From Roseovarius sp. MMSF_3359 (GTDB lineage Bacteria > Pseudomonadota > Alphaproteobacteria > Rhodobacterales > Rhodobacteraceae): a DNA stretch of 64,000 nucleotides. Of this stretch, positions 3,532 through 43,877 are shown piece by piece (the first letter of the stretch is position 1; every line of letters begins with the position of its first letter). The position numbers were made by a program, and so were the translations under genes. Location: the NCBI RefSeq assembly GCF_030733385.1, contig NZ_JASHJC010000017.1, forward strand, positions 1 to 64,000, read 5' to 3'. A model generated the notes under the pieces. The model worked only from the letters and a program-made list of their open reading frames with translations, had not been told where the DNA came from and searched no databases.

Positions 3532-3549
3532 TGTAAAGAAAACTTGACA
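3532..3549. promoter_or_regulatory. PpsR/CrtJ operator upstream of bchC, box 1
   Basis: TGTaaagaaaacttgACA is an exact TGT-N12-ACA match in the 113-bp crtF-bchC gap. It pairs with a second box starting 26 bp downstream. Confidence 0.85.
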
Positions 3550-3557
3550 CATATGTG

Positions 3558-3575
3558 TGTCTCTTTAAACTTACA
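3558..3575. promoter_or_regulatory. PpsR/CrtJ operator upstream of bchC, box 2
   Basis: TGTctctttaaacttACA is an exact TGT-N12-ACA match. With the box at 3532 it marks the regulated promoter of bchCXYZ-puf, a position where Rhodobacter species also have tandem PpsR/CrtJ sites. Confidence 0.85.
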
Positions 3576-8845: not shown

Positions 8846-8978
8846 GCCGCGATGGCCAGTGATCCGAGACCAAGCTGCCTGCCCGGAAGGGCGGACAGAC
8901 GCCTGAGGGGCCATGATGGCCCGGATGGACCCGGCCGCGGGGTACGCGGCGTCAGCGTAACGTTCCGGAGGAAAGTTT
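8846..8978 (+). promoter_or_regulatory. pufQ-pufB intercistronic region with stem-loop
   Basis: This 133-bp gap holds a short inverted repeat, GGGCCATGATGGCCC (8908-8922), and a second possible GCCC/GGGC stem at 8881-8892. A strong GGAGGA Shine-Dalgarno for pufB lies at 8967-8972. In Rhodobacter the corresponding region is where puf mRNA is cleaved and stabilised; that function here is inferred from position only. Confidence 0.5.
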
Positions 8979-9128
8979 ATGGCTGATAACACCGACCTGT
9001 CTTTTACAGGTCTCACCGACGAGCAAGCCCAAGAGCTGCATTCGGTCTATATGAGCGGCCTTTGGCTGTTCGTGCTGATTGCGGTGGTTGCCCACCTGGC
9101 AACCTATATCTGGGCGCCTTGGTTCTGA
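8979..9128 (+). CDS. pufB: Light-harvesting 1 beta polypeptide PufB
   Basis: The 49-residue LH1 antenna beta subunit reads [20 protein letters not shown] at the N terminus and has one membrane helix. His39, ten residues from the C terminus, is the bacteriochlorophyll ligand; His21 is the second conserved histidine. The C terminus ends IWAPWF. GGAGGAAAG precedes the ATG. pufA starts 13 bp downstream. The protein pairs with PufA in the ring around the reaction centre. Confidence 0.96.
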
Positions 9129-9141
9129 GGGAGGATCGGAA

Positions 9142-9309
9142 ATGTCCAAGTTCTACAAGATCTGGCTGATTTTCGATCCGCGCCGCGTGTTTGTTGCGCA
9201 AGGCGTCTTTCTGTTCCTGTTGGCCGTGATGATCCACCTGGTGGTTCTGTCGAACGGCGTCAACTGGTTCGAAAACGCTGCTGCGTCACGGGCTGCTGCG
9301 GACGAATGA
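9142..9309 (+). CDS. pufA: Light-harvesting 1 alpha polypeptide PufA
   Basis: This 55-residue LH1 alpha subunit begins [20 protein letters not shown], the hallmark N terminus. It has one membrane helix with His32 as the bacteriochlorophyll ligand and Trp42 after it. The ATG at 9142 follows a GAGGGAGGATCGGAA Shine-Dalgarno region; in-frame codons upstream belong to pufB in another frame. The stop is followed by a strong hairpin (9338-9367) separating the abundant pufBA part of the transcript from pufLMC. Confidence 0.96.
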
Positions 9310-9337
9310 GCCAAGGGACGCAAGTCCTTTGCAAGAC

Positions 9338-9367
9338 TGTTGCGGGCGGCGCCCGTCGCCCGCAACA
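9338..9367 (+). promoter_or_regulatory. pufA-pufL intercistronic stabilising hairpin
   Basis: A perfect 11-bp stem (TGTTGCGGGCG, 9338-9348, with CGCCCGCAACA, 9357-9367) encloses an 8-base loop, followed by an A-rich stretch and no U-run. In Rhodobacter hairpins at this place protect pufBA mRNA from 3' decay, giving excess LH1 over reaction-centre protein. The same role is inferred here. Confidence 0.8.
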
Positions 9368-9433
9368 AACCAGAAAAAAATGACGACGGCATGAGGTCAC
9401 GATAGGCCCCGCCGCCAGATGCGGAGAGAGAAG

Positions 9434-10273
9434 ATGGCTTTGCTCAGCTTTGAAAGAAAGTATCGTGTCCGCGGAGGGACGCTGATTGGCGGCGATCTGT
9501 TCGATTTTTGGGTCGGTCCCTTTTACGTGGGCTTTTTCGGGGTCACGACGGCGTTTTTCGCGCTCCTTGGCACCATCCTGATTTTTTGGGGAGCGGCCCA
9601 TCAGGGCACCTGGAACCCCTGGCTCATCAACATCGCACCGCCTGACCTGAGCTATGGTTTGGGCGTCGCACCATTGATGGAGGGGGGGCTTTGGCAGATC
9701 ATCACGATCTGTGCGACCGGCGCCTTCATCAGTTGGGCTTTGCGCGAGGTCGAGATCTGCCGCAAGCTGGGGATGGGCTATCACGTCCCCTTCGCCTTCA
9801 GCTTCGCGATCCTGGCCTATGTAACGCTGGTCATCTTCCGGCCGCTGCTTATGGGCGCCTGGGGTCACGGGTTCCCCTACGGGATCTTCAGTCATCTCGA
9901 TTGGGTCTCGAACACCGGCTACGCCTATCTGCATTTCCACTACAATCCGGCGCATATGCTGGCGGTGTCGCTCTTCTTTGCCACCTGTTTCGCGCTGGCG
10001 CTGCATGGCGGCCTGATCCTGAGCGCGGCCAACCCTGAAAAGGGCGAAGAGATGAAGACGCCTGATCACGAAGATACGTTTTTCCGCGATTTCATCGGCT
10101 ATTCCATCGGCACACTGGGTATTCACCGGCTCGGTTTCCTGCTGGCGATCAACGCGGTGTTCTTCAGCGCGGTCTGCATCATCATCAGCGGCCCGGTCTG
10201 GACCAAGGGCTGGCCGGAATGGTGGAACTGGTGGCTTGAGCTGCCGATCTGGCCCGGACAGGGAGGGATGTAA
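9434..10273 (+). CDS. pufL: Photosynthetic reaction centre L subunit PufL
   Basis: PufL binds the special pair, accessory bacteriochlorophyll, a bacteriopheophytin and the QB site together with PufM. The 279-residue protein begins [20 protein letters not shown] and has five membrane helices. Conserved histidine contexts include [27 protein letters not shown] and ALALHGGL. The ATG at 9434 is chosen over an ATG at 9419 because it gives the canonical N terminus and follows GGAGAGAAG. pufM begins 2 bp after the stop. Confidence 0.97.
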
Positions 10274-12471: not shown

Positions 12472-14400
12472 ATGACACATCAAAGACCCAAAACACCACT
12501 TCTGGACCGCGTTGCCGGGCCAGCGGACCTGCGGCAGATGCCCGACCATCAACTGGCCGCTTTGGCCGACGAATTGCGCGCCGAGGTGATCGACGCGGTG
12601 TCGGAAACCGGCGGGCACCTGGGCTCTGGCCTTGGCGTGGTTGAGTTGAGCGTGGCGATCCATGCGGTGTTCAACACGCCGATGGACAAGCTGATCTGGG
12701 ACGTGGGTCATCAATGCTATCCGCACAAGATCCTGACCGGAAGGCGCGACCGTATCCGCACGTTGCGGCAAAAGAACGGGCTGAGCGGCTTCACCAAGCG
12801 CAGCGAGTCGAAGTTTGATCCGTTCGGCGCGGCGCATAGTTCGACCTCGATCAGTGCCGCCCTGGGCTTCACTGTTGGGCGCGATATGGGTCAGCCCACC
12901 GGCGATGCGATCGCGGTGATAGGCGATGGCTCGATAAGCGCCGGGATGGCCTATGAGGCGCTTAACAACGCAGGGGCCGAGGGACGGCGAATATTCGTCA
13001 TTCTCAATGACAACGAGATGAGCATCGCTCCACCGGTGGGCGCGATGTCGAGCTATCTTTCCGGCCTCTATGCCAATGAACCGCTGGCCAAGATGAAGTC
13101 CCTTGCCGAAGGGTTTGAGGCTGCATTACCTACACCCCTTCGCGAAGGCGCGAAACGAGCGCGGCAGTTGGCAAATGGCTTGACCGGCTCGGGGACGTTG
13201 TTCGAAGAGTTGGGGTTTGAATATGTAGGGCCAATTAACGGCCACGACATGAACCAACTCTTACCGGTGCTGCGCGCGGCGCGGGTGCGGGCGACGGGGC
13301 CGGTCCTGATCCATTGCTGCACGGTCAAGGGTAAGGGATATGCGCCCGCCGAGACCAGTGCCGACAAGTATCACGGCGTGTCGAAATTTGATGTGGAAAC
13401 CGGCACCATGGCCAAGAAGGGGGGCGGTGCGCCCTCCTATACCTCGGTTTTCGGCAAGGCGCTGACCGAAGAGGCCGCGCGTGATCCGGATGTGGTGGCG
13501 GTGACCGCGGCCATGCCCTCAGGCACCGGCGTGAATATCATGGCCGAACGGTTTCCCGCGCGGGTTTTTGACGTGGGCATCGCCGAGCAGCACGCGGTGA
13601 CTTTCGCGGCCGGAATGGCGGCGAGCGGGCTCAAGCCTTTCTGCGCGATTTATTCAACCTTCCTGCAACGCGGGTTCGATCAGGTGGTGCATGACGTCGC
13701 GCTCCAGGGCCTGCCCTTGCGCTTTGCCATTGATCGCGCGGGGCTTGTCGGGGCCGATGGCGCGACCCATGCGGGCAGCTTCGACATCGGCTATCTGAGT
13801 AACCTGCCGGGCTTTACGGTCATGGCGGCGTCGGATGAAGCAGAACTGACGCATATGGTGGCGACATCGGTGGCCCATGAGGAGGGGCCGATCGCCTTCC
13901 GCTATCCGCGCGGCGCCGGTGAGGGTGTCGAGATACCTGCGCAGGGTGAGGTGCTGGAGATTGGCAAAGGCCGTGTCGTTGCGGAAGGCGAAGATGTGGC
14001 TATCCTCTCCTTCGGGGCGCATCTCTCGGAATGTCGCGCGGCGGCTGATCTGCTGGCGCAAGATGGCGTGAGTGTCACGCTTGCAGATGCGCGGTTCGCC
14101 AAGCCGCTGGATACGGATCTGGTGCTGCAACTTGCACGCCATCACCGCGCGCTCATCACGGTCGAGCAGGGGGCCGAAGGTGGTTTTGGCTCGGTGGTCC
14201 TGCACTCGCTGGCGCGGAACGGGGCGTTTGACCAGGGGTTGGTCATCCGAAACATCTGCCTGCCCGACCGCTTCATCGAACAGGCCAGCCCGGCGGAGAT
14301 GTATGCCGATGCGGGCATGACGGCGGCGGATATCGCGGCGACAGTCCGGCAGGCGCTTGGCCAATCGGGCGATGTCGTGCCTTTGTCACTCGCCCGGTGA
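12472..14400 (+). CDS. dxs: 1-deoxy-D-xylulose-5-phosphate synthase
   Basis: Dxs condenses pyruvate and glyceraldehyde 3-phosphate with thiamine diphosphate, the first step of the MEP isoprenoid pathway. The 642-residue protein has the thiamine diphosphate region [18 protein letters not shown]...NDNEM near 145-180, [17 protein letters not shown] in the transketolase pyrimidine domain and the usual C-terminal domain. A dxs copy downstream of puf is common in Rhodobacteraceae PGCs and supplies precursors for carotenoids and the geranylgeranyl tail. Confidence 0.96.
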
Positions 14401-30483: not shown

Positions 30484-30501
30484 TGTCAATTATAATTTAC
30501 A
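30484..30501. promoter_or_regulatory. PpsR/CrtJ operator upstream of bchF
   Basis: TGTcaattataatttACA is an exact TGT-N12-ACA match, 57 bp upstream of the bchF start. It overlaps the left arm of the inverted repeat TTTACACAT/ATGTGTAAA. Confidence 0.85.
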
Positions 30502-30655
30502 CATTTGGACATTGACATGTGTAAACCGCAGATTTCGACACTATGATGACGGGCGGAACATCGCCGATCTTTGATTGCATTAACTTCAAGGGATTAGGGG
30601 GTGCGACAATTTAGGCTTGTCTTACAAGGCATTGCGTCTGAATGATGCTGTCTAG

Positions 30656-30673
30656 TGTCAAGTTAAATTGACA
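30656..30673. promoter_or_regulatory. PpsR/CrtJ operator upstream of ppaA
   Basis: TGTcaagttaaattgACA is an exact TGT-N12-ACA match, 98 bp upstream of the ppaA start. It suggests autoregulation of the ppaA-ppsR pair or looping with the bchF-proximal box. Confidence 0.82.
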
Positions 30674-30770
30674 TTCAATCATAACGGTCGCACACTGCCG
30701 GGTAATCAGAGCAGATTAATAATTCGCATAAGCGGCTTCATCGTAAGTGTCCGGTGGGAGGGCAGTACAC

Positions 30771-31577
30771 ATGGAAGACGACGCGACAAGACCATCCTCT
30801 GAATTCTCCGGGATACCTCAGCCCGCGATCAGGTTTCTTGTGGAATCCGCCTTGAAATCACTGGCATCGGAATGTGCTGAGCCGAAGCCCGGCAGCCGGG
30901 ATGAGTGGGTGCGCCATCTCAGCCAGGCATTGATGTCGGAGGCGGAGGTCGAGCATCACAAGGTGCTCTCCTCGCTGATGGCAAACGGCGTGAGTAATCA
31001 GGAGTTGCTCCATTTCTACATCCCCGAAGCCTCAAGGTATCTGGGCGAAAAATGGGTCAGTGACGAGGCGAGTTTCGTCGACGTGACGACCGGTGCCGCG
31101 CGGCTTCAGGCGTTGTTCCGCGACCATGATGACGACGGCGATGCGGGACAGTTGCTGGACCGTAGCATCCCCCTTGGGCAGTCGGTTCTGATGATAATCC
31201 CGCAGTTTGAACAGCATTCGCTGGGCGCATTTGTTGCGGCGGACGGGCTTCGGCGCCACGGCCTTTGGGTGCGTATGGCGATCGGTTTGTGCGATGCGGA
31301 GATTGCGCGATTGATTTCGGCCAACCGGTTTTCGATGCTTGGAATCTCTTTGGCGTCATGGAAATCGGTTGAAAAGGCGGCGGATTTCATAGAAGACGTT
31401 CGTAAGAGTGTTGCGGACGTGCCGCCGATCGTTGTCGGGGGGCGTATCGTCGAAGACCGAGAAGAGGTCGAGCGGCGCTCCGGCGCTGATTTCGCGGTCC
31501 ATTCAATCCGCGAGGCAATCGAGCGTTGCGGCCTTTCAACTGTCGCCAAGATGCGCCCGTTTGAAGTGGCTCAGTAG
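30771..31577 (+). CDS. ppaA: Cobalamin-binding PGC regulator PpaA/AerR
   Basis: This is an antirepressor-type regulator of photosynthesis genes that acts with PpsR/CrtJ. In Rhodobacter capsulatus AerR binds B12 light-sensitively. The 268-residue protein has a helical part with EASRYLGEKWVSDEASFVDVT (B12-binding-2 type) followed by a cobalamin-binding (SCHIC) domain with FEQHSLGAF; His149 corresponds to the candidate cobalamin ligand. The ATG at 30771 with GGGAGG upstream is preferred to GTG at 30747. ppsR follows after 29 bp. Confidence 0.9.
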   Translation: MEDDATRPSSEFSGIPQPAIRFLVESALKSLASECAEPKPGSRDEWVRHLSQALMSEAEVEHHKVLSSLMANGVSNQELLHFYIPEASRYLGEKWVSDEASFVDVTTGAARLQALFRDHDDDGDAGQLLDRSIPLGQSVLMIIPQFEQHSLGAFVAADGLRRHGLWVRMAIGLCDAEIARLISANRFSMLGISLASWKSVEKAADFIEDVRKSVADVPPIVVGGRIVEDREEVERRSGADFAVHSIREAIERCGLSTVAKMRPFEVAQ

Positions 31578-31606: not shown

Positions 31607-33040
31607 GTGACGGAGCAAATCCCGGGATCGGAAACGCTTAAGATCGGAGAGCTTCCGGCTGGTTTGAATGTCGAGTCCCTGATCGAGCAGGCCTCCGATA
31701 TCGCAATTCTCGTTGGCAAGAACGGTATGGTCGAGGGGATCACGGTTAATCCTGATTGTCCTTCGCTTGGCTGCCTGGACCATTGGGTTGGCCGGACGTT
31801 CGACAGTTTCCTGACCATCGAAAGCCGGGAAAAATATGCCGCGCGCATCAAGGCGATAACCGCCGATCCCGGCATGGTCCCGCGGCCGCTGCAGTTGAAC
31901 CATGTCGATAACGCGGTCTGGGAATTTCCGGTGCGCTACACGGTGCACCGGGTCAAGGACCGGCCATCGTTTCTGCTTTTCGGGCGGGATATGCAGCCGA
32001 TTGCCGAAGTCCAGCAACACCTGGTGGCCGAGCAGACTGCGCGAGAGCGGGACCAGCAGAAGATACGCAGCTACGAGACGTTCTACCGCGTTGTGCTTGA
32101 GGCCTCTGAGACGCCCTTGATGCTGGTGGAGAGTGAAACCGGTCGCATCCGCGATGTGAACAGCGCCGCCGCCGCACTCTTTGGGACGAAGCTCGAAACG
32201 CTTGCCGGCAGTTCGCTGCCGCAGGCGCTTGAAGGGCAGCGCAAGGCTGAGTTGATGGAAAGTCTGCATGCCGCGGCGAGTGCGGAAGAGTTGAAGGTGA
32301 TCGAGGTCATTGCCCGCCGCAGCGGTCGTGACCTGGCCTTGTTCGCCCAGTATTTCAGGGCGGCGGGGGAGTTGTTTCTGATTTGTCGGGTGGCCTCGAT
32401 TGACGATTCCAGCGCAACCGGCCCCGAAGTGGCGCAATCGCTGGCGACCTTGTTCAATTCGGCCAGTGACGCGATCGTCATGACCGATGCGAAGGGTGTC
32501 ATTCGGGATGCGAACGAGGCGTTCCTGATCCTGACCGACGCGGCGCAGATCCGCGATGTGAAGAACAAATCACTTGGTGAGTTCCTGGCCCGCGGCGATG
32601 TCGACCTGAAAATCATCCTCGAAACGACGATAAAGACCGGGAGGGTGCGCAGCTATGCCACCCAGGTTCTGAGTTCTGTCGGAACCCGTGCCAATGTCGA
32701 TGTGGCGTCGACCCGGTTGCAGCGGCGCGGCGGTGATCTGGGTTTCGGGCTGATCATCCGCGACGTGACGCCGAGCGAGGTGGCAAATGCCAGCGCGGGC
32801 GCGTCGGTGATGAGCGACGAGGCGATGAAGAGCGTCATGGACCTTGTCGGAACGGCTTCGCTGAAGTCGCTGGTTTCGGCAACATCGGATGTGGTTGAGA
32901 AGATGTGCATCGAGACCGCGGTGAAGATGACCGGTAACAACCGGGTCGCGGCGGCCGAGATGTTGGGCCTTTCTCGCCAGAGCCTTTACGTCAAGCTGCG
33001 CAAGCATGGCCTTCTCAAGGGTGAGCCTGGCGAGGATTGA
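31607..33040 (+). CDS. ppsR: Photosynthesis gene repressor PpsR (CrtJ)
   Basis: PpsR is the aerobic repressor of bch, crt and puf genes and binds TGT-N12-ACA. The 477-residue protein has an N-terminal PAS-like domain (about 22-130), a coiled Q-linker (about 135-160), two PAS domains (about 160-270 and 280-390) and a Fis-type helix-turn-helix (TGNNRVAAAEMLGLSRQSLYVKLRKHGL, about 442-469). Cys260 and Cys434 match the two redox-active cysteines known in Rhodobacter PpsR. Translation starts at GTG behind GGGGA. Confidence 0.95.
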   Translation: MTEQIPGSETLKIGELPAGLNVESLIEQASDIAILVGKNGMVEGITVNPDCPSLGCLDHWVGRTFDSFLTIESREKYAARIKAITADPGMVPRPLQLNHVDNAVWEFPVRYTVHRVKDRPSFLLFGRDMQPIAEVQQHLVAEQTARERDQQKIRSYETFYRVVLEASETPLMLVESETGRIRDVNSAAAALFGTKLETLAGSSLPQALEGQRKAELMESLHAAASAEELKVIEVIARRSGRDLALFAQYFRAAGELFLICRVASIDDSSATGPEVAQSLATLFNSASDAIVMTDAKGVIRDANEAFLILTDAAQIRDVKNKSLGEFLARGDVDLKIILETTIKTGRVRSYATQVLSSVGTRANVDVASTRLQRRGGDLGFGLIIRDVTPSEVANASAGASVMSDEAMKSVMDLVGTASLKSLVSATSDVVEKMCIETAVKMTGNNRVAAAEMLGLSRQSLYVKLRKHGLLKGEPGED

Positions 33041-33090: not shown

Positions 33091-33108
33091 TGTATAGTTT
33101 AATTGACA
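33091..33108. promoter_or_regulatory. PpsR/CrtJ operator upstream of bchG, box 1
   Basis: TGTatagtttaattgACA is an exact TGT-N12-ACA match ending 2 bp before the bchG start codon. Confidence 0.83.
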
Positions 33109-33110
33109 CT

Positions 33111-34019
33111 ATGAGTGTCACATTAGATTTACATTCCGCTCGACGCACTCCAAGTCCCCGCGCCGTGTTGACGCTGATCAAGCCGATCACCTGGTTTCCG
33201 CCGATCTGGGCCTATCTTTGTGGTGTGGTCGCGTCGGGCGTGCCGGTGTCCACCGCGCCATGGCTGGTCCTCGCGGGCATGGTGCTGGCCGGGCCGGTTG
33301 TCTGCGGGATGAGCCAGGCGGCGAATGACTGGTGCGACCGCCATGTGGACGCGATAAACGAACCGCATCGCCCAATCCCGTCCGGGGCCATCCCGGGCCG
33401 CTGGGGGCTGTGGATCGCCATCGTGATGAGCGGGCTGGCGCTGGCCCTCGGGGCCATGCTGGGCCCATGGGGATTTGGTGCGACAGTCTTCGGTGTCGCC
33501 GCTGCCTGGGCCTATTCGGCAGAACCTTTCCGCCTCAAGCGGTCGGGCATCTGGGGGCCGGGCCTCGTGGGGCTTTGTTACGAGGGGCTGCCCTGGTTTA
33601 CCGGTGCGGCGGTGATGGCGGCGGGCGCGCCCGCACTGCCGGTGGTCGCCATCGCGCTCCTTTACGCGCTGGGTGCCCATGGCATCATGACACTCAATGA
33701 TTTCAAGGCCCTGGAGGGGGACCGCCAGACCGGCGTGAACTCCTTGCCCGTAACCCTTGGGCCGGAGCGGGCCGCGCGGGTTGCCTGCTGGGTCATGGCG
33801 CTGCCACAGGTGGCGGTGATCGCGGCGCTGTTTTTCTGGGACCGCCCGTGGCATGGGGCGGCGATTGCCGTCCTGCTCCTTGCGCAGTTCTGGGCCATGC
33901 GGGTGCTGCTCAGCGACCCGAAGGGCCGCGCGCCCTGGTACAACGCCACCGGCGTCACGCTTTACGTCAGCGGCATGATGGTCGCGGCCTTCGCGCTGCG
34001 CGGCATGGGAGGACTGTGA
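33111..34019 (+). CDS. bchG: Bacteriochlorophyll synthase BchG
   Basis: BchG attaches geranylgeranyl diphosphate to bacteriochlorophyllide a in the membrane. This 302-residue UbiA-family prenyltransferase has the first Asp-rich motif NDWCDRHVDAINEPHRPIPSG and the second region LNDFKALEGDRQTGVNSLPV. The ATG at 33111 matches the family N terminus (MSVTLDLH); an ATG at 33090 would give seven more residues. A clear Shine-Dalgarno is missing, and the start codon lies between two PpsR boxes. Its stop overlaps the next start. Confidence 0.94.
   Translation: MSVTLDLHSARRTPSPRAVLTLIKPITWFPPIWAYLCGVVASGVPVSTAPWLVLAGMVLAGPVVCGMSQAANDWCDRHVDAINEPHRPIPSGAIPGRWGLWIAIVMSGLALALGAMLGPWGFGATVFGVAAAWAYSAEPFRLKRSGIWGPGLVGLCYEGLPWFTGAAVMAAGAPALPVVAIALLYALGAHGIMTLNDFKALEGDRQTGVNSLPVTLGPERAARVACWVMALPQVAVIAALFFWDRPWHGAAIAVLLLAQFWAMRVLLSDPKGRAPWYNATGVTLYVSGMMVAAFALRGMGGL
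33116..33133. promoter_or_regulatory. PpsR/CrtJ operator inside the 5' end of bchG, box 2
   Basis: TGTcacattagatttACA is an exact TGT-N12-ACA match, 25 bp from box 1. It lies entirely within codons 2-8 of bchG, so the operator overlaps coding sequence. Confidence 0.82.
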
Positions 34020-36489: not shown

Positions 36490-37016
36490 ACGCGATGATC
36501 CCTGCCTGGATCGGTGATGAACTGGTCCCTGTTGAAAAACTTGACGTGCATCGGCGCGGCCTGCGTCACAAGGCCGTGTCAGTCTTTGTGCTCTGCGGCG
36601 ACAAGGTCCTGCTGCAACGGCGAGCCTTGTGCAAATACCACACGCCGGGGCTCTGGGCGAACACCTGCTGCACGCATCCGCACTGGAACGAAAGCGCCGA
36701 GGATTGCGCGGTCAGGCGCCTGCGCGAAGAGCTTGGCATCGACGCCCATTCCCTGACCTATCGTGACCGGGTGGAATATCGCGCGGATGTCGGCAACGGC
36801 CTGACGGAGCATGAATTGGTCGATATCTTCCTCTGGCGGGTGGCGGAGCCGATGGATTTGGTGCCGAACCCCGATGAGGTCATGGACACCGAATGGGTAA
36901 GCATGTCGGAACTCGTCGGCAACGTCCAAAGGGAACCGGCCCGTTTCACACCGTGGTTGAAAATCTATCTCGAACAGCACGCGGCGCAGATTTTCGACGT
37001 CGAGATGCAGCCGTAG
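36486..37016 (+). CDS. idi: Isopentenyl-diphosphate delta-isomerase (type I)
   Basis: Idi interconverts IPP and DMAPP for the carotenoid and bacteriochlorophyll tail supply. The 176-residue Nudix-fold enzyme has LWANTCCTHPHWNE with the catalytic cysteine, and RRLREELGI as the Nudix-like motif. Translation is coupled to bchP through ATGA. It ends the bchG-orf428-bchP-idi operon, 34 bp from the convergent PpsR-like gene. Confidence 0.94.
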   Translation: MNAMIPAWIGDELVPVEKLDVHRRGLRHKAVSVFVLCGDKVLLQRRALCKYHTPGLWANTCCTHPHWNESAEDCAVRRLREELGIDAHSLTYRDRVEYRADVGNGLTEHELVDIFLWRVAEPMDLVPNPDEVMDTEWVSMSELVGNVQREPARFTPWLKIYLEQHAAQIFDVEMQP

Positions 37017-37050
37017 CGGCGGCGTCCCGCTTGCTCGATTGGCGGAGCTC

Positions 37051-37803
37051 TCAGCCGGATGTGATGCCGTATCGCCGTAACTTGTCGTAAAGCCCCTGAC
37101 GGCTCAGCCCCAGAACCTTTGCCGTTGCTGCCCGGTTATTGCCGGTGAGCCTGAGGGTTGCTTCGATGCAGTCCTTCTCAAAAATATCAATCTGCGCACG
37201 GACCAGCTTGCGCAGGGGAACCTGACCGACGCCCGCCGTTTTCGGGTCTGCCTGCGGGGCATTTTCGTGCGGAACACCCTGCGCGCGCGACCCCGCCTCG
37301 AAAAGAGAGTGGTAGCGCGCTTCGTCATCCTTGAGACGTTCCAGGCGGTCTTCGGTGAACTTCTGAAGGCGCCAAAGCTGCTCCTGAAGGGCGATGGTCT
37401 GGCTGATGTCCTTGCCCAGAAGCAGGATATGACCGGCGGTCCCGGCATGGACGGCGACATAGGTGATGAAGATGTCTGTGCCGTCGGTCGATGAATGAGC
37501 CACCGTTTCTTCCCGCGGGGCCCCCGGATGGGAGGCGGTGATCATATCACTCAACCGCGCCCACGCCGCGGCATCCACCAGGTCGTGGAATCCTGTTCCT
37601 GGCCAGTTCGCGATGTTGAGGTCCGGGGCGCTGCCCAGTCGGCCCGCGACGTCCTGGACGATGCCCTCGCTGTCCAGGATGACGGCCAAATCGGCGGCGG
37701 ACGCGATGATCTGTCCGATCATTTCCGCATCGGTTTCGGAGAAGCAGGCAGCAGGATTGGAGAAGAATGCACTCAAAACGGTCTGGACTTTGCTCAGGAA
37801 CAA
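37051..37803 (-). CDS. Shortened PpsR paralogue (N domain plus HTH, no central PAS pair)
   Basis: This 250-residue protein aligns by eye with PpsR at both ends. The N-terminal PAS-like domain (residues about 28-135, SAADLAVILDSEGIVQD, GHILLLGKDIS) and coiled linker (about 136-170) are followed directly by the Fis-type helix-turn-helix FEKDCIEATLRLTGNNRAATAK...GLSRQGLYDKLRRYGI (about 208-247). Both central PAS domains, including the Cys260 equivalent, are missing; Cys212 matches PpsR Cys434. It lies divergent to the bacteriophytochrome operon. It probably binds similar DNA; its signal input is unknown. Confidence 0.85.
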   Translation of the reverse strand: MFLSKVQTVLSAFFSNPAACFSETDAEMIGQIIASAADLAVILDSEGIVQDVAGRLGSAPDLNIANWPGTGFHDLVDAAAWARLSDMITASHPGAPREETVAHSSTDGTDIFITYVAVHAGTAGHILLLGKDISQTIALQEQLWRLQKFTEDRLERLKDDEARYHSLFEAGSRAQGVPHENAPQADPKTAGVGQVPLRKLVRAQIDIFEKDCIEATLRLTGNNRAATAKVLGLSRQGLYDKLRRYGITSG

Positions 37804-37855
37804 TTGGCTTTCTCTACTGCAGAATGGCGTGGTTTACAAATCAACTGGCGTTGAC

Positions 37856-37869
37856 AGATCCGTGGATCT
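37856..37869. promoter_or_regulatory. Inverted repeat in the PpsR-paralogue / heme oxygenase divergent region
   Basis: AGATCC-GT-GGATCT is a perfect 6-2-6 inverted repeat in the 128-bp gap between the short ppsR paralogue and bphO. It lies next to a TTGACA (37851-37856) that could be a -35 element. It is not a TGT-N12-ACA box. A binding site for a local regulator is possible but unproven. Confidence 0.35.
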
Positions 37870-37931
37870 TGTCGCCTGTGCCCTTGTCTTCGGGGAACTG
37901 AACCCTTTCTTCGTGCCGATAAGCCGCTAAT

Positions 37932-38645
37932 ATGCAAAGTGTTTTGCCGCGCAGGTTTCTGACGCGGGCAAGCTGGCTTGGGGAGTGGAAATCGTTGCAG
38001 GACAGGCAAAAGATATCGTCGGCCAGGATTCGCGATGTGCTGCGCAGGCACACCCATGACGCCCATGAGGCGCTGCACGCGCATGCGAGCTTCGCGGCAC
38101 TCCTGCGACATGAGCTTGACCTAGACGGTTACAGGGAGCTGATGCGGGCGCTGCATGGGTTCTATGCGCCGCTCGATCGGCAAATTTCGCGTGTGTTGGC
38201 CGAACGTTCTGCATTGGGGACGGCTTATTCCTACGCATGGCGCAGCGAATTTCTGGCTCGGGATTTGCGGGACCTGGGCTTCAGCGCCGAAGAGATTGAC
38301 CGCAATGACCGCTGCGAACAGGCGGCGCAGCTTGTTTCGGCGGCATCTCTGGGCGGTGTCCTCTACGTGATCGAAGGTGCGATGTTGGGCGGGGCGACCA
38401 TTGACCGCGCGGTTCAGCCCCTGCTGTCGGCAGAAAACGCTGGCGGGCGCGGTTACTGGGCCTGGTGCCGGTCGGAAAACGGGCACCGTTGGCGAATGAC
38501 GCTTGAGTTTCTGGAACGTCTTTGCGCCGACGGCGCGGCGCTTGACGATCTTTGCCTGGGGGCCGAGAGCACCTTCCTGGCGCTATCGCAGTGGCTCGCG
38601 CCATTGGAACGGACCGCATTGTCTGTCGAAAGGGGGGCCGCGTGA
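37932..38645 (+). CDS. bphO: Biliverdin-producing heme oxygenase BphO
   Basis: BphO opens haem to biliverdin IX-alpha, the chromophore of the downstream bacteriophytochrome. The 237-residue protein contains RRHTHDAHEALHAHASF with the proximal haem histidine and SAASLGGVLYVIEGAMLGG, the distal-helix region of the heme oxygenase family. The ATG at 37932 lacks a clear Shine-Dalgarno; a TTG at 37996 behind GGGGAG would give a length closer to other BphO proteins, so the start is uncertain. Its stop overlaps bphP (GTGA). Confidence 0.9.
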   Translation: MQSVLPRRFLTRASWLGEWKSLQDRQKISSARIRDVLRRHTHDAHEALHAHASFAALLRHELDLDGYRELMRALHGFYAPLDRQISRVLAERSALGTAYSYAWRSEFLARDLRDLGFSAEEIDRNDRCEQAAQLVSAASLGGVLYVIEGAMLGGATIDRAVQPLLSAENAGGRGYWAWCRSENGHRWRMTLEFLERLCADGAALDDLCLGAESTFLALSQWLAPLERTALSVERGAA

Positions 38646-40930
38646 CCACAAGCACCGTTGATCTGGAGACATGCGACCGCGAACCCATCCATATCATCGG
38701 GGCGGTACAACCGCATGGCGCCCTGATCGCGTTTGAACACGCGACGTCGGTCGTTACCTATGCAAGCGTCAACACCGCGGCCTTCCTGGGGGCTGCGCCG
38801 GAGGAGATACTGGGCAAGAAAATCGGGGACGTGATCGGCGAAGAGAATGTGGCGAAACTGCTGACCCTGCCGCTCGATCCGTCCTCGCCCGAGTTGCTTA
38901 AACCCTGGTTTTTGAAGTTCTCCGGGGCCGATGGGCGGATTATCCATGCCGAATGTCTGCCGCACCGGAACGATGGCCACATCATCCTGGAATTCCTGAG
39001 CCCCGAGCCCGCACCGGCGTCGATCTGGGAAGACGAGCTGCTCCGCCGCGAGATCATCTCCGAATTGGTGAAGCCGGGGGCCCTGGTCGAATTGGCCGCG
39101 GCAAGCGCCAAGATGATCCGCGACGTGACCGGATTCGACAGGGTCATGATCTACAAGTTTGCCGAAGATAAACATGGCGAGGTGATCGCCGAAAGCACCA
39201 ATCGGCCAGACAGTTTTCTGGGGCTGCATTATCCCGCGTCTGACATCCCCGATCCTGCCCGCCGGCACTTTACGCTGAACGTGATGCGCTCGATCCCGGA
39301 TATCAATGGCGAACATGTTGCGATCATTGATCGAAACGGCAATGTCGCCGGTGCAAATTCGGCGGCCCCGCTTGACCTCACCTATTCCAAGCTCCGCGCC
39401 GTCGCGCCGGTGCATGTGGAGTATCTCAATAACATGGGCGTCGGTGCCAGCCTGTCGATATCGCTGATTACCAATAACGAACTTTGGGGTCTTGTCGCCT
39501 GTCACCACTATGACACGCGCCTGATTTCTTCGAGCCGCCTGCGATTTGCCGAACTGCTGGGCGGCACCACATCCGCACTGCTGCAGAGCATCGAAAACAC
39601 GACCCAGCTCAAGAAGAGTATCGAGGCGGAAAAGGCGGCCTATCAGATCGAACAGAAGGCGCGGTCCGGTGCCTCGCTGAGGGATCTGATTACCGATCAG
39701 GCGTCTTTCCTGATGGAACTGATTGATGCGCAGGGATTGCTGTTCGTTTCCAAGGATACCGTGGTGCGGGTCGGCTGTTTGCCGGAAAAGCCGCTTGATT
39801 TCAGTAACCTTCGCGATCTTCTGGTCGATGGGGTGGCGACATCGTCGCATTTGTCATCGCTGATCGACATGGATGACGAGCAACGGCTGATGGCGGCGGG
39901 TGCGGCGCTTTTGGATCTGTCGGAAGACGGTCGGGACTACCTTGTGTTCCTGCGCAGCCATTTCGAGCAAACGATCCGCTGGGCCGGGAAGCCCGAGAAG
40001 GTTGAAACCAAGAAGGAAGACGGTACCGTGCGGCTCTCGCCCAGGGGGTCCTTTGCGCTCTGGCGCGAGGAGCGGCTCGGGATGAGCCGGCCATTCGACG
40101 CGATTGATCGCGATGCGCTGAGGATCCTACGGCGGGCGCTTTTTGCGTTGAACAGCCTTGAGCACGAGCAGGCGGCGCTTGAGGCCCAGAAAGCCGCCGA
40201 GGCCGAAGAACTCCGTCTGCGCCATGCGATGCTGGAAGCGGCGCGGGCCAGTTCCATGGGCGAGCTTACATCCGCGATTGCCCATGAATTGAACCAGCCC
40301 TTGTCGGCGGTGGCCAATTACGTGGGCGCCTGTCGGCAGGAATTGCTGAACTCCGGCGTCACGATCCCTGCGCGCGCGGAGCAGATGATTGACCAGGCCA
40401 TCAAGGAAACCGCCAGGGCAGGGGACCTCGTACACCGGGTCAGGAACTTTATTTCCCGCGGTGATCTCAACGCCAACTACATTGACCTGAAAGACGCGAT
40501 CAATCAGGGGATGGATCTTGCGCTGGTCTCCAATGACCTGCCGAGGTTGCAGGTCACGCTCTTGCTAGACAGCGGGTTGCCAAAGGTCCTGGCCGATCCG
40601 GTTCAGGTCGCGCAGGTGGTCCTCAATCTCGTGAGAAACAGCCTGACCGCGATGGAGAATGCGTCCGAACAGAAGCTGTCCGTAGAGATGGCCGAGGTGG
40701 ACGGTTTCGCGCGGATCACGGTCAGCGATACCGGATGTGGCATCCCGCCTGAAATGCAGAAAAACCTCTTTGAGCCTTTTCATTCATCCACGCCGCGGGG
40801 CATGGGTATTGGCCTTTCGCTTTGCCGCTCTATCGTAGAGGCGCATGCGGGTCGGATCTGGGCGGAAGCCACGGGAAACGGGACCGCTTTTGTGTTTGAA
40901 TTGCCGATACAGGGTGGGTTCGATGAGTAA
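38642..40930 (+). CDS. bphP: Bacteriophytochrome histidine kinase BphP
   Basis: This red/far-red photoreceptor kinase has 762 residues and starts at GTG behind AAAGGGGGG, overlapping bphO. Domains: PAS (about 10-115) with the biliverdin cysteine Cys11 in LETCDREPIH; GAF (about 135-320) with PASDIP at 198-203 and CHH at 287-289; PHY (about 330-510) with the tongue motif PRGSF at 467-471; HisKA with phospho-acceptor His548 in SAIAHELNQPLS; and HATPase with an N-box near 662-666, DTGCGIP (696-702) and GMGIGL. All key residues are present, so an active, light-regulated kinase is expected. Confidence 0.95.
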   Translation: MTTSTVDLETCDREPIHIIGAVQPHGALIAFEHATSVVTYASVNTAAFLGAAPEEILGKKIGDVIGEENVAKLLTLPLDPSSPELLKPWFLKFSGADGRIIHAECLPHRNDGHIILEFLSPEPAPASIWEDELLRREIISELVKPGALVELAAASAKMIRDVTGFDRVMIYKFAEDKHGEVIAESTNRPDSFLGLHYPASDIPDPARRHFTLNVMRSIPDINGEHVAIIDRNGNVAGANSAAPLDLTYSKLRAVAPVHVEYLNNMGVGASLSISLITNNELWGLVACHHYDTRLISSSRLRFAELLGGTTSALLQSIENTTQLKKSIEAEKAAYQIEQKARSGASLRDLITDQASFLMELIDAQGLLFVSKDTVVRVGCLPEKPLDFSNLRDLLVDGVATSSHLSSLIDMDDEQRLMAAGAALLDLSEDGRDYLVFLRSHFEQTIRWAGKPEKVETKKEDGTVRLSPRGSFALWREERLGMSRPFDAIDRDALRILRRALFALNSLEHEQAALEAQKAAEAEELRLRHAMLEAARASSMGELTSAIAHELNQPLSAVANYVGACRQELLNSGVTIPARAEQMIDQAIKETARAGDLVHRVRNFISRGDLNANYIDLKDAINQGMDLALVSNDLPRLQVTLLLDSGLPKVLADPVQVAQVVLNLVRNSLTAMENASEQKLSVEMAEVDGFARITVSDTGCGIPPEMQKNLFEPFHSSTPRGMGIGLSLCRSIVEAHAGRIWAEATGNGTAFVFELPIQGGFDE

Positions 40931-41528
40931 AGCCCCGGAACAGTTTTCAGTCTACGTGGTCGAGGATGACGATGCCGTTCTGCATTCTCTTTGCGCATTG
41001 CTGAACGCGCATGGCTACGAGACGATCCCTTGCGTTTCGGCAGAAGAATTCCTGGATGTGTTTGACCCGGCCCTGAAGGCCTGCCTGCTTCTCGACCTCC
41101 GCCTGCCGGGCATCAGCGGCGTGCAATTGCAGTCGCATCTCAACGACATGGGGGTCAACATCCCGATCATCGTGATTACGGCGCATGGGGACATCTCGAT
41201 TGCCGTCAAGGCGATGCGGGACGGCGCATTCGATTTCATCGAGAAACCCGCCCAGGCCGACCACCTGCTCGAGGCGGTCAAATCTGCCGGTGGTCTGCTT
41301 TTCAATCGGCTGCCTCCAATGCCGTCGAAGAAGGTTGTTGCCGACCGACTCGCCAAGCTGACAGACCGCGAACGCGAGGTGCTCGATTATCTGCTCCAGG
41401 GGCGGTTGAACAAGGAAATCGCCGATGAGTTGGGCGTCAGCCGGCGAACGGTCGAGGTCCATCGGTCGCGTATCCGCGAGAAGATGCAGGCGCGCGGTAT
41501 TGCCGACCTGATCCGGATGGTCAGCTAG
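40923..41528 (+). CDS. FixJ/LuxR-type response regulator, partner of BphP
   Basis: This 201-residue regulator has a receiver domain with acidic pocket E14-D15-D16, phospho-acceptor Asp58 (LLLDLRLPG), a conserved Thr/Lys (VITAHGD, IEKPAQ), and a C-terminal LuxR-type helix-turn-helix LTDREREVLDYLLQGRLNKEIADELGVSRRTVEVHRSRI. The ATG at 40923 lies 8 bases inside bphP, so kinase and regulator are translationally coupled. Output is DNA binding, unlike the single-domain regulators of many BphP systems. Targets are unknown; palindromes just downstream are candidates. Confidence 0.92.
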   Translation: MSKAPEQFSVYVVEDDDAVLHSLCALLNAHGYETIPCVSAEEFLDVFDPALKACLLLDLRLPGISGVQLQSHLNDMGVNIPIIVITAHGDISIAVKAMRDGAFDFIEKPAQADHLLEAVKSAGGLLFNRLPPMPSKKVVADRLAKLTDREREVLDYLLQGRLNKEIADELGVSRRTVEVHRSRIREKMQARGIADLIRMVS

Positions 41529-41553
41529 GCTGCCGTCGGTATAAGTAGGTAAT

Positions 41554-41563
41554 ACTACGTAGT
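41554..41563. promoter_or_regulatory. Perfect palindrome downstream of the response regulator gene
   Basis: ACTACGTAGT is a perfect 10-bp palindrome, within a larger GTAGGTAATACTACGTAG context (41545-41562). It contains CTACGTAG-like half-sites resembling targets of FixJ-type regulators. It lies 83 bp upstream of the likely start of the small RHH-like gene. Confidence 0.45.
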
Positions 41564-41580
41564 GGAAAATCCGAACTATC

Positions 41581-41595
41581 TAGGCAAGTTGCCTA
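41581..41595. promoter_or_regulatory. 15-bp inverted repeat upstream of the RHH-like gene
   Basis: TAGGCAA-G-TTGCCTA is a perfect 7-1-7 inverted repeat, 27 bp after the first palindrome (start to start) and 41 bp before the ATG at 41637. It is a plausible operator, possibly for the RHH-like protein itself. Confidence 0.4.
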
Positions 41596-41636
41596 CGCCT
41601 TACCCTCGGTTGAGTGCCGGGTGGCTGAGATGGAAC

Positions 41637-41879
41637 ATGTCGGGTGAGAATAAATCGCGTTTGATCGACCCAGGGCGTGCCGAAAGTGGTGCGCAGGATT
41701 GCTGTTTTTCCGTCACGTTGAATGAGGAGGAGTTGTCGGCTGTCGATGGATGGCGGCGGGCCAACAACATTCCGACGACGGAAGGCGCAATTCGGGAGCT
41801 TCTGCGCCTTGGTCTGCTGAGCGAGCTTTCGCGGGCTTATGATGTTGTCAAATCCATTCGAAACTCGGTGGACGGCTAG
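41637..41879 (+). CDS. Small ribbon-helix-helix-like protein
   Basis: This protein of about 80 residues begins MSGENKSRLIDPG. Residues about 20-60 (CCFSVTLNEEELSAVDGWRRANN-IPTTEGAIRELLRLGL) look like a beta strand plus two helices of the ribbon-helix-helix DNA-binding fold. The frame is open upstream to a GTG at 41562 with no Shine-Dalgarno, so the ATG at 41637 is preferred, itself with only a weak site. It follows the bphP-regulator operon by 108 bp and is preceded by two palindromes. No family assignment is certain. Confidence 0.6.
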   Translation: MSGENKSRLIDPGRAESGAQDCCFSVTLNEEELSAVDGWRRANNIPTTEGAIRELLRLGLLSELSRAYDVVKSIRNSVDG

Positions 41880-42065
41880 TCGTTCAGGATAAAGGCGGCA
41901 GGTCTGCGCGGGCCGAACCGCTGAGCCGGTCGTTTTGGTTGTGGCCCGTCGATATGCCGATGGGTTTCGAGCGGCAACAAGGGGGATGAAAGACGTCGAC
42001 CTCGGACATGTGTTGCTGGTTGCAAGCTGTTGTCCAAGAACGGGTCGATGTCGGGAGGAGGATCG

Positions 42066-42893
42066 TTGTTCAAGTCAAACGCCGAGCCGGGACCGATCGA
42101 GCTTGATGCCTACCTGCGCAGTCAGACGAATATCCGTCGGCTCAAGGCCAGTTTGCCCGACGACCTGGTGGCAAGCCTCGCGCGAGAGGTCATCATGCGG
42201 CTCGCATCGCGAGACCGTAGCCTGGATGCCGTGCCGCATGACCCGATACCCGGGGAATTGGAGGCGCTTTGCACTGCGTTGATTTCCGATGACGACACGG
42301 CGGCGGCTGAGATCATCAGCGGTGTTCGTGCCGATGGAACGCCCCCCGATGTTGTTTACCTCAAGTATCTCGCAGCAGCGGCAAGAATGCTGGGCGAATG
42401 GTGGATCGAAGACCGAGCCGATTTCGTCCAGGTAACGATCGGCACTGGTCGCATGTTCGCCATCATGCGTGGCATGCGGCACCTGTTTGTGAGCAACGTC
42501 CCCGCACCAGGAAAGACGGCGATCTTCGCGTCGGTCCCGGGAGAGGATCATACGCTTGGGGTGCGCATGGCCGCCGATATCTTCCGCAAGGAAGGGTGGG
42601 AGATTGCGCTCAAGATCGGTCTGGACCACGACGAACTGGTTACCGAGGTGGAGCGGTCCCCAGGTCGAATTGTGGGGTTGTCTATCGGCGGGCGACATTC
42701 GGTGGACGCGCTGTCGCGGCTTGTCGTTGCTTTGCACATCTGCTCCCCTGGCACGCCTCTTCTCGTGAGCGGGCAGAACATCGACGCCATCAGGCCGCTT
42801 TTGTCCCTGATGGGTCTGGATGGTGTGGCGGGCGATATTGATGAAGCCAAGGAGCAGATGGCGGCGCTATCGGACAGGCAAAGCGAAGGGTAA
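42066..42893 (+). CDS. Cobalamin-binding (SCHIC) PpaA/AerR-like protein
   Basis: This 275-residue protein shows a helical B12-binding-2-like segment (YLAAAARMLGEWWIEDRADFVQVTIGTGRM, about 101-130) and a cobalamin-binding domain with PGEDHTLGVRMAADIF, where His162 sits at the position of the cobalamin ligand. It is similar in plan to PpaA at 30771 but clearly diverged. TTG at 42066 is chosen because GGAGGAGG (42054-42061) precedes it; an ATG at 42048 lies before that site. It has no DNA-binding domain and probably acts through protein contact. Confidence 0.8.
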   Translation: MFKSNAEPGPIELDAYLRSQTNIRRLKASLPDDLVASLAREVIMRLASRDRSLDAVPHDPIPGELEALCTALISDDDTAAAEIISGVRADGTPPDVVYLKYLAAAARMLGEWWIEDRADFVQVTIGTGRMFAIMRGMRHLFVSNVPAPGKTAIFASVPGEDHTLGVRMAADIFRKEGWEIALKIGLDHDELVTEVERSPGRIVGLSIGGRHSVDALSRLVVALHICSPGTPLLVSGQNIDAIRPLLSLMGLDGVAGDIDEAKEQMAALSDRQSEG

Positions 42894-43163
42894 GACGGCA
42901 CCTTTTGTGGGATTTCCGATGGTATCGGCTGATTTTGCCGCGTGCCATGCGTTGGTCTGAACCCCGGAAACCGACCGGTTTGACTTAAATCCTCAGGTCA
43001 TTTTGCGAAACAAACTGTTCTCAAGGCCGTCTTGCCGTTTTGCTGACATAGCTCTGCCACGAATTCGCCAGATTTCGGCCTTAGGATCACCTTTAATTGT
43101 CGATCCGGGGCATCGCTCCGGCGTTTTCAACACGTGGGGGCGTGGGAAAATTCGAGCAACATC

Positions 43164-43877
43164 ATGAGCGGTTCTGCGACGCCAAACCAACTGCCACATG
43201 CGGCCCCGGAAACACCGGGAAAACCGCCGATTGACCCGACCGCCTCGGGCGAGCCTGACCAGACCGCGGATGCCCTCATCCGCGAGGTTATGGTCGCGCA
43301 GAAGCGGCGTGATAGCCATGCGGCCCTGCCCGAATTGGAGGAAAACGAAGCGGCTGCACAGACCAAGCCGATCAAGCACCCGCGTCGCCTTTTCCGAAAA
43401 GCCGAACCTTCGTCAGCGGACACCGCGACAGATGCCGAACGCACCAAGTCCGCCGGTCTGTTCATGCGTAGCCTTCACCGCGCGCTTGACGCGATCCGCA
43501 GTTACCGGCCGTCGCGCAAGCATCTGATCGTCGCCGCTGTCATCGCGATCATGTATTTTCGCCCCTGGCTGATCCCGATCACGCTCTTCGTTTTGTTTCT
43601 GAGCATCCTGATCGCCTACCTGACGCTCGGGCCGGACCGCGTGGCGGAACTGGTTGTCGGTGCCTGGCAGAAACTGCGCGCGCGCCGTCCCGAACTCGCC
43701 GAAACGATCCGGCAACGCGCCGAGCTCATGGCCACGCGGATTGATGCGGCCCTTGACCGTGTGCCCGGTTCCTGGACCGATGGTCTGCATGTCCCGGATT
43801 TCTCCGAAGCGGACACGGCGATTGGTGACCGGCCCGATCCGTTCGACCGTCTTGCCAAAGAAGCGCAGCGCGGCTGA
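43164..43877 (+). CDS. Conserved membrane protein of unknown function upstream of secE
   Basis: This protein of about 237 residues has a long polar, proline- and acid-rich N-terminal part (about 1-105), two adjacent membrane spans (HLIVAAVIAIMYFRPWLIPITLFVLFLSILIAYLTLG, about 119-155), then a charged helical tail. I do not recognise a functional family. The start is uncertain: ATG at 43164 is used, with GTG at 43134 as alternative. It precedes secE by 120 bp. Confidence 0.7.
   Translation: MSGSATPNQLPHAAPETPGKPPIDPTASGEPDQTADALIREVMVAQKRRDSHAALPELEENEAAAQTKPIKHPRRLFRKAEPSSADTATDAERTKSAGLFMRSLHRALDAIRSYRPSRKHLIVAAVIAIMYFRPWLIPITLFVLFLSILIAYLTLGPDRVAELVVGAWQKLRARRPELAETIRQRAELMATRIDAALDRVPGSWTDGLHVPDFSEADTAIGDRPDPFDRLAKEAQRG

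Follow-up and report, generated by a model that had tools for sequence, protein, structure and literature searches.

How red or far-red light might reach the photosynthesis genes of a roseobacter is the question raised by six genes at positions 37,051 to 42,893 of a 64,000-nucleotide stretch of Roseovarius sp. MMSF_3359 (Rhodobacteraceae; part of the 68.7-kb contig NZ_JASHJC010000017.1), which is called the window here. An earlier note on this DNA had read these genes, lying side by side between idi and secE, as one signalling island tied to photosynthesis; they encode a mini-PpsR, a heme oxygenase (bphO), a bacteriophytochrome (bphP), a FixJ-type response regulator (RR, gene rr), a small ribbon-helix-helix (RHH)-like protein (rhh) and a second PpaA/AerR-type protein (ppaA2). 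We consider it fairly probable that the signal runs from BphP to the RR, from there to an operator and on through ppaA2, with or without rhh, to PpsR. In this chain, BphO would supply biliverdin, BphP would sense red/far-red light and its FixL-type kinase would set the phosphorylation of the RR. We infer that the phosphorylated RR would bind the operator downstream of rr, activating transcription of rhh-ppaA2, and that PpaA2 would act on PpsR, tuning it at photosynthesis promoters beside the PpaA of the photosynthesis gene cluster (PGC). Light quality would thereby set the dose of a second regulator, PpaA2.

All six open reading frames (ORFs) were recovered at or close to the positions described, and five of the six proteins have Pfam or NCBIfam matches, the exception being the RHH-like protein; protein folds were assigned from sequence matches. 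On the plus strand, bphO (37932-38645; PF01126, E 2.4e-12, the sole match to this family in the own genome), bphP (38642-40930, GTG start) and rr (40923-41528) overlap by 4 bp and 8 bp, and because of these overlaps they look like one operon. In BphP, the Pfam domains PAS_2, GAF and PHY are followed directly by HisKA and HATPase_c with no additional PAS, which is the architecture of a type-1 bacteriophytochrome histidine kinase, complete with biliverdin cysteine and kinase boxes. The protein looks like a red/far-red light sensor. Its kinase half (residues 511-762) has a FixL kinase as top match in the PDB (171 bits vs 56 bits for the top full-length phytochrome kinase). The RR, a receiver joined to a LuxR/GerE HTH according to Pfam/NCBIfam scans, matches 1yio (140 bits) and FixJ 5xso (127 bits) best in the PDB. 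By sequence, the pair is closest to FixL-FixJ, with a phytochrome sensor in place of the heme-PAS oxygen sensor of FixL.

To judge conservation, we used 24 loci. A scan of genome contigs with BphP had given 31 loci, among which L037-L057 (21 loci) hold BphP orthologues of 55-75% identity; the ten with distant phytochromes or kinases (L058-L067) were left out, and the window and two more loci, L110 (genome G016) and L152 (genome G594), complete the set. By neighbourhood, 16 belong to Rhodobacteraceae and 8 are of a Rhizobiales type. The biliverdin-binding Cys11, the DIP and PRxS motifs and the H-, N- and G-box residues are kept in 22 of 22 aligned BphP, as are the phospho-acceptor Asp58, Thr86 and Lys108 of the RR receiver in 22 of 22 aligned RR, both alignments being made without L057, which is cut inside bphP, and L152. 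PRxSF and the H-box lie 81 residues apart in all but one of the 22 BphP, the exception being L037, where the simple pattern matched elsewhere. In all 23 loci with the stretch, window included, bphP is followed by rr (the 24th, L057, ends inside bphP), so that the gene arrangement is not due to chance; the core order is kept and the genes are not scattered in relatives, as expected if the earlier note was right about an island. What is conserved is bphO-bphP-rr together with the gene that follows rr. The island in its six-gene form is a different matter: the gene sets of the two groups were seen together only in the window, although L043, which ends 0.3 kb behind rhh, could hide a ppaA2.

Behind rr, each locus holding the stretch has the same element, consisting of a half-site, a gap of 4-5 bp, TACGTAGTGG, a further 5 bp and CCGAACTA. 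In the window this predicted operator/promoter element lies at 41543-41580 on the plus strand, with a gap of 4 bp. It is present in 23 of 23 loci, window included, of which 22 defined it and one, L152 (order ppsR, bphO, bphP, rr, box, rhh), was held out and yielded the site with an E-value of 1.6e-9. The element closely resembles, as judged from its letters, the FixJ sites reported as GTAMGTAG and CSNAATWT near -33 (PMC4999443). A profile of the 22 sites had a single match in the own genome (E up to 10), namely the one behind rr. Of 21 other module genomes, 20 had one strong match each, which the contig coordinates place at the rr position; G463 showed an additional weak match (E 0.26), and there was none in G471, whose locus lacks the stretch. 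Since the profile had been trained on the same sites, a cross-clade test was run, with sites located beforehand by a pattern drawn from all loci: a position weight matrix from six Rhizobiales-type sites ranked the rr site first in 16/16 Rhodobacteraceae loci, and the reverse, Rhodobacteraceae-trained matrix did so in 6/6 Rhizobiales-type loci. The margin was small in L042 (12.9 vs 12.5). When the pattern was relaxed to at most three mismatches, the own genome gave 25 matches vs 59 in the backward control, and all matches other than the site at 41556 had two or three mismatches.

The output of the RR hence looks narrow, the conserved operator occurring once in the own genome, before rhh-ppaA2. 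We regard it as unlikely that the system is instead a general light-responsive two-component system with many targets, in which the strong operator would be one well-conserved promoter and the others would carry weaker half-sites. Such sites are short and could escape the genome-wide search, which scored no more than 150 of 212-584 candidates per genome and to this extent leaves a narrow output less secure; two classes of FixJ sites have also been reported (PMC4999443). That the profile matched nothing else in the own genome, and a single strong site in 20 of the 21 others, nevertheless speaks for few targets, and predicted FixJ regulons are small too, comprising four genes in Rhizobiales (PMC4999443).

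The operator stands before rhh in the Rhizobiales-type loci and before ppaA2 in the Rhodobacteraceae, and the window has both genes. The order bphP-rr-rhh is found in 7/7 Rhizobiales-type loci holding the stretch, and bphP-rr-ppaA2 in 16/16 Rhodobacteraceae loci, window included. In the window, rhh (41637-41879, plus strand) encodes 80 amino acids with neither a Pfam nor an NCBIfam match, so its RHH label reflects a sequence pattern and no curated family; tblastn found relatives in L043, L050, L051, L052, L054, L056 and L152. A search by tblastn at 1e-4 of the 15 other Rhodobacteraceae loci, one of which (L039) shows little upstream sequence, detected neither rhh nor a divergent ppsR. One might suppose that the relay is real, that its main output is the RHH-like protein, with the photosynthesis link running via rhh, and that ppaA2 is a later neighbour under separate control. 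The Rhizobiales-type loci would fit this, as tblastn gave no co-directed ppaA2 behind rhh there (with the reservation that L043 is short), and so would the window, where rhh comes first behind the operator. We nevertheless hold this to be quite unlikely, as the 15 other Rhodobacteraceae loci retain the operator without a detectable rhh, and ppaA2 is the next recognised gene (small ORFs in the gaps were only listed).

ppaA2 (42048-42893, plus strand) encodes a protein with a B12-binding fold (PF02310, E 6.9e-8; 32.8 bits vs a cut-off of 32.1) whose top PDB match is AerR (7te2, E 1.5e-11). Its ExHxxG motif, E166-D-H168-TL-G171, matches E143xH145xxG148 of AerR (PMC6199135), and H168 and G171 are invariant in all 26 PpaA proteins that were aligned. 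Four of the initial 30 were left out: that of L051, which lacks the motif, both proteins of L047, and the PGC PpaA of L042, which is cut. Fold and motif together place PpaA2 in the PpaA/AerR family as far as the sequence can tell. The motif suggests binding of B12, and PpaA2 is probably a tetrapyrrole-binding protein (cobalamin or heme); titles cited in PMC6199135 report both ligands for the AerR/PpaA family. As the earlier note had recognised, the core PGC already has a ppaA (30747-31577; B12-binding match above cut-off, and the motif) followed by a full-length ppsR (31607-33040; identified from its alignment with mini-PpsR and the tree), both on the plus strand, and the latter is the presumed final target of PpaA2. 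PpaA2 and PGC PpaA fall on separate sides of a midpoint-rooted tree (94/93, just below the 95/80 mark). L051 encodes, on the opposite strand downstream of rhh (13386-14252), a protein with distant similarity to PpaA2 (29% across some 160 residues) and without HxxG.

The same note had taken the island to duplicate both regulator types. This does not fit the mini-PpsR, which is encoded on the minus strand (37051-37803), divergent from bphO. In an alignment, its N domain and Q-linker are joined directly to the Fis-type HTH (HTH_8, E 9.9e-14), and PAS1 and PAS2 are absent; residues 27-169 match positions 18-161 of the solved PpsR (4hh3/4hh2), and the HTH keeps its conserved Cys. The protein accordingly lacks the full PpsR/CrtJ domain set and scores 131 bits with TIGR02040, below the cut-off of 275. 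We considered it as a copy of the PGC ppsR and rejected this, since its partner in the tree is the divergent PpsR of L043 (99/96), while the window's own PGC PpsR falls elsewhere; because of its long branch, this position is somewhat unsure. The mini-PpsR may be a fading relic or a stripped-down regulator.

A ppsR divergent from bphO/bphP is present in 8/8 Rhizobiales-type loci as well as in the window; in the former, the encoded protein has 373 amino acids in L050 and 464-521 in six others (L152 excepted). This arrangement invites the idea that the signal of BphP passes straight to the divergent (mini-)PpsR by light-dependent contact of the two proteins, in the manner of RpBphP1 and PpsR2, and not via the RR. 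BphP and ppsR2 occur together in PGCs of Bradyrhizobium, an action of BphP on PpsR is reported for Rhodopseudomonas (PMC10569730), and an exact TGTN12ACA lies in the ppsR/bphO spacer of 4 of 7 relatives scanned (L052, L054, L056 and L057). Other findings speak against it. RpBphP1 has a PAS9-HOS output and no kinase (PMC6899989), whereas the window BphP has intact kinase residues and is accompanied by a cognate RR that has an operator of its own. The mini-PpsR has lost PAS2, the contact with BphP in the published model, and the spacer between it and bphO is free of TGTN12ACA even with one mismatch allowed. Moreover, RR and operator are retained in the 15 other Rhodobacteraceae loci, where no divergent PpsR was found. 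Direct binding is therefore quite improbable in our eyes, and we return to the chain through the RR and PpaA2.

A link of this chain to photosynthesis is indicated by pufM, which was found in 22/22 other module genomes searched (all E < 1e-130; the L039 genome was not among them), as compared with 166 positives among 394 sampled genomes of the family (E <= 1e-60). Seventeen of the 24 loci have bch genes next to the module, or pufM on the same contig at a distance of up to about 51 kb; L039 and L057 allow no judgement on this distance. With the conserved core order, this partly supports the earlier note, in so far as it read the genes as one signalling module tied to photosynthesis.

Several observations weigh against the proposed chain. 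Because the module genomes are related to one another, the cases compared for pufM are not independent events. In G016 a distance of 1.4 Mb separates module and PGC, and four further genomes (those of L037, L038, L040 and L054) have the two on different contigs. BphP and RR score below the NCBIfam cut-offs of the families after which they are named (BphP equivalog 248 bits vs 1040, FixL 190 of 850, FixJ 194 of 255). The operator is weakest in L044 and L047, where 12 of 17 core positions matched. Intact bphO occurs in 13/16 Rhodobacteraceae loci: L037 and L046 have none beside bphP, the frame of L053 is reduced to 128 amino acids, and these three BphP-bearing members of the family are without an intact bphO or any PF01126 match genome-wide. 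In the window, ppaA2 is separated from the operator by rhh and by a 168-bp gap behind that gene, because of which it may have its own promoter. Finally, BphP was detected in only 2 of 35 same-genus genomes searched (G014 and G016), so that the module is dispensable.

In wider samples the module is rare as well, with a BphP orthologue in 1 of 394 family genomes at E <= 1e-100, the own genome being that one, and in 2 of 385 class genomes at E <= 1e-120, the own genome among them. In the BphP tree, the 16 Rhodobacteraceae proteins are joined (100/99) with L043 as sister; within them the window pairs with L037 (93/90), next to the remaining 14 (85/89), and neither of these values reaches the mark for strong support. 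bphO is present in 7/8 Rhizobiales-type loci, and L050, which has no local copy, shows a PF01126 match elsewhere in the genome. On the simplest reading, the module entered, or stayed in, the Rhodobacteraceae from an ancestral state that included ppsR and rhh; ppaA2 would later have been placed behind the operator, and ppsR and rhh would have been lost in most lines of the family. The organism of the window would then be an evolutionary intermediate. A bolder proposal, to which we give slightly less than even chances, is a serial two-photoreceptor circuit: a natural phytochrome-FixL/FixJ relay for red/far-red light, with one operator in the genome, would set the amount of its dedicated product, a second regulator of PpsR of the AerR type (B12 or heme), which may itself read blue light or redox state. 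In the intermediate form of the window, the operator would drive both the older rhh and the newer ppaA2, with the shrinking PpsR still attached.

Among known systems, FixL-FixJ of rhizobia shares with the island the kinase half, the RR and an operator resembling reported FixJ sites. Unlike FixL, a heme-PAS oxygen sensor, the island has a biliverdin phytochrome as input, and its output is rhh/ppaA2 in place of fixK/nifA. Closer in layout is the engineered pREDusk operon (DrHO, DrPSM-FixL, BjFixJ), which combines heme oxygenase, a phytochrome sensor on a FixL kinase and FixJ in identical order (PMC9594775); the island differs in being natural, in its photosynthesis context and in having its own target operon. 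As the output of pREDusk drops in red light (PMC9594775), we expect by analogy that darkness or far-red light raises PpaA2 and red light lowers it. The BphP/PpsR2 systems of Bradyrhizobium and Rhodopseudomonas likewise have a phytochrome beside ppsR in the PGC or acting on it (PMC10569730), but RpBphP1 carries a PAS9-HOS output and binds PpsR2 (PMC6899989), whereas the island pairs a FixL-type kinase with an RR and has an operator. Compared with the AerR/PpaA antirepressors of CrtJ/PpsR, whose match and motif it shares, PpaA2 stands apart from PGC PpaA in the tree and is encoded behind the operator of a phytochrome-linked RR. LdaP of Dinoroseobacter shibae also brings light to a PpsR antirepressor in a roseobacter, but this LOV protein responds to blue light and acts as a single protein without two-component relay (PMC12654162). 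None of the titles and abstract openings surveyed, a set mostly without subscription papers, describes such a module, and the word phytochrome is absent from the main text of two papers on roseobacter/Rhodobacteraceae PGCs (PMC3176799, PMC6052148). If the chain is right, light-quality control in roseobacters would run via a phosphorelay with one regulator gene as its target, in contrast to the direct phytochrome-repressor binding described for Rhodopseudomonas. The module would be what nature offers as an equivalent to engineered phytochrome-FixL/FixJ expression systems, equipped with a conserved operator, and may show how such a relay switches its target gene.

In the window, the PGC with ppaA and ppsR is followed by idi, the six island genes, an ORF of 247 amino acids at 43134-43877 without Pfam or NCBIfam match, and then secE, nusG, rplK and rplA. 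Family scans checked bchP, a pucC-like gene, idi and the island proteins, and the remaining PGC names come from reading the translations. A foreign composition of the island was considered and rejected, as its GC content (0.597) is unremarkable against the rpl side (0.599) and the PGC (0.624). A sigma-70 promoter scan of 36900-43200 returned no hit (1.7 expected), and a repeat scan gave weak matches only. Of four family-genome stretches inspected for an empty site, one had idi without secE in reach and three had no idi.

Three observations concern relatives of island genes. The 128-residue bphO frame of L053 (9618-10004; a same-genus relative, genome G467) is missing its middle part. In L037, a further PpaA/AerR-like protein (228 amino acids, GEAHTLG motif) is encoded at 8902-9588, upstream of bphP and at the place expected for bphO. 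The own genome also encodes a kinase with an adjoining regulator (G000:C36:171006-172383); this regulator is 39% identical to the island RR and its best relative there, and cross-talk of the island with this pair is possible.

Control of the island by PpsR was rejected for the window: in addition to the mini-PpsR/bphO spacer, those between rr and rhh and between rhh and ppaA2 contain no exact TGTN12ACA, even though such sites are present in the PGC. Within bphP itself there is one exact match, at 39852. Altogether the window has 17 matches vs 6.7 expected, with pairs before crtE (1448-1490), before bchC (3532-3575), between bchF and ppaA (30484-30673) and at the start of the bchG ORF (33091-33133). 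The true start of bchG probably lies further downstream than this ORF start.

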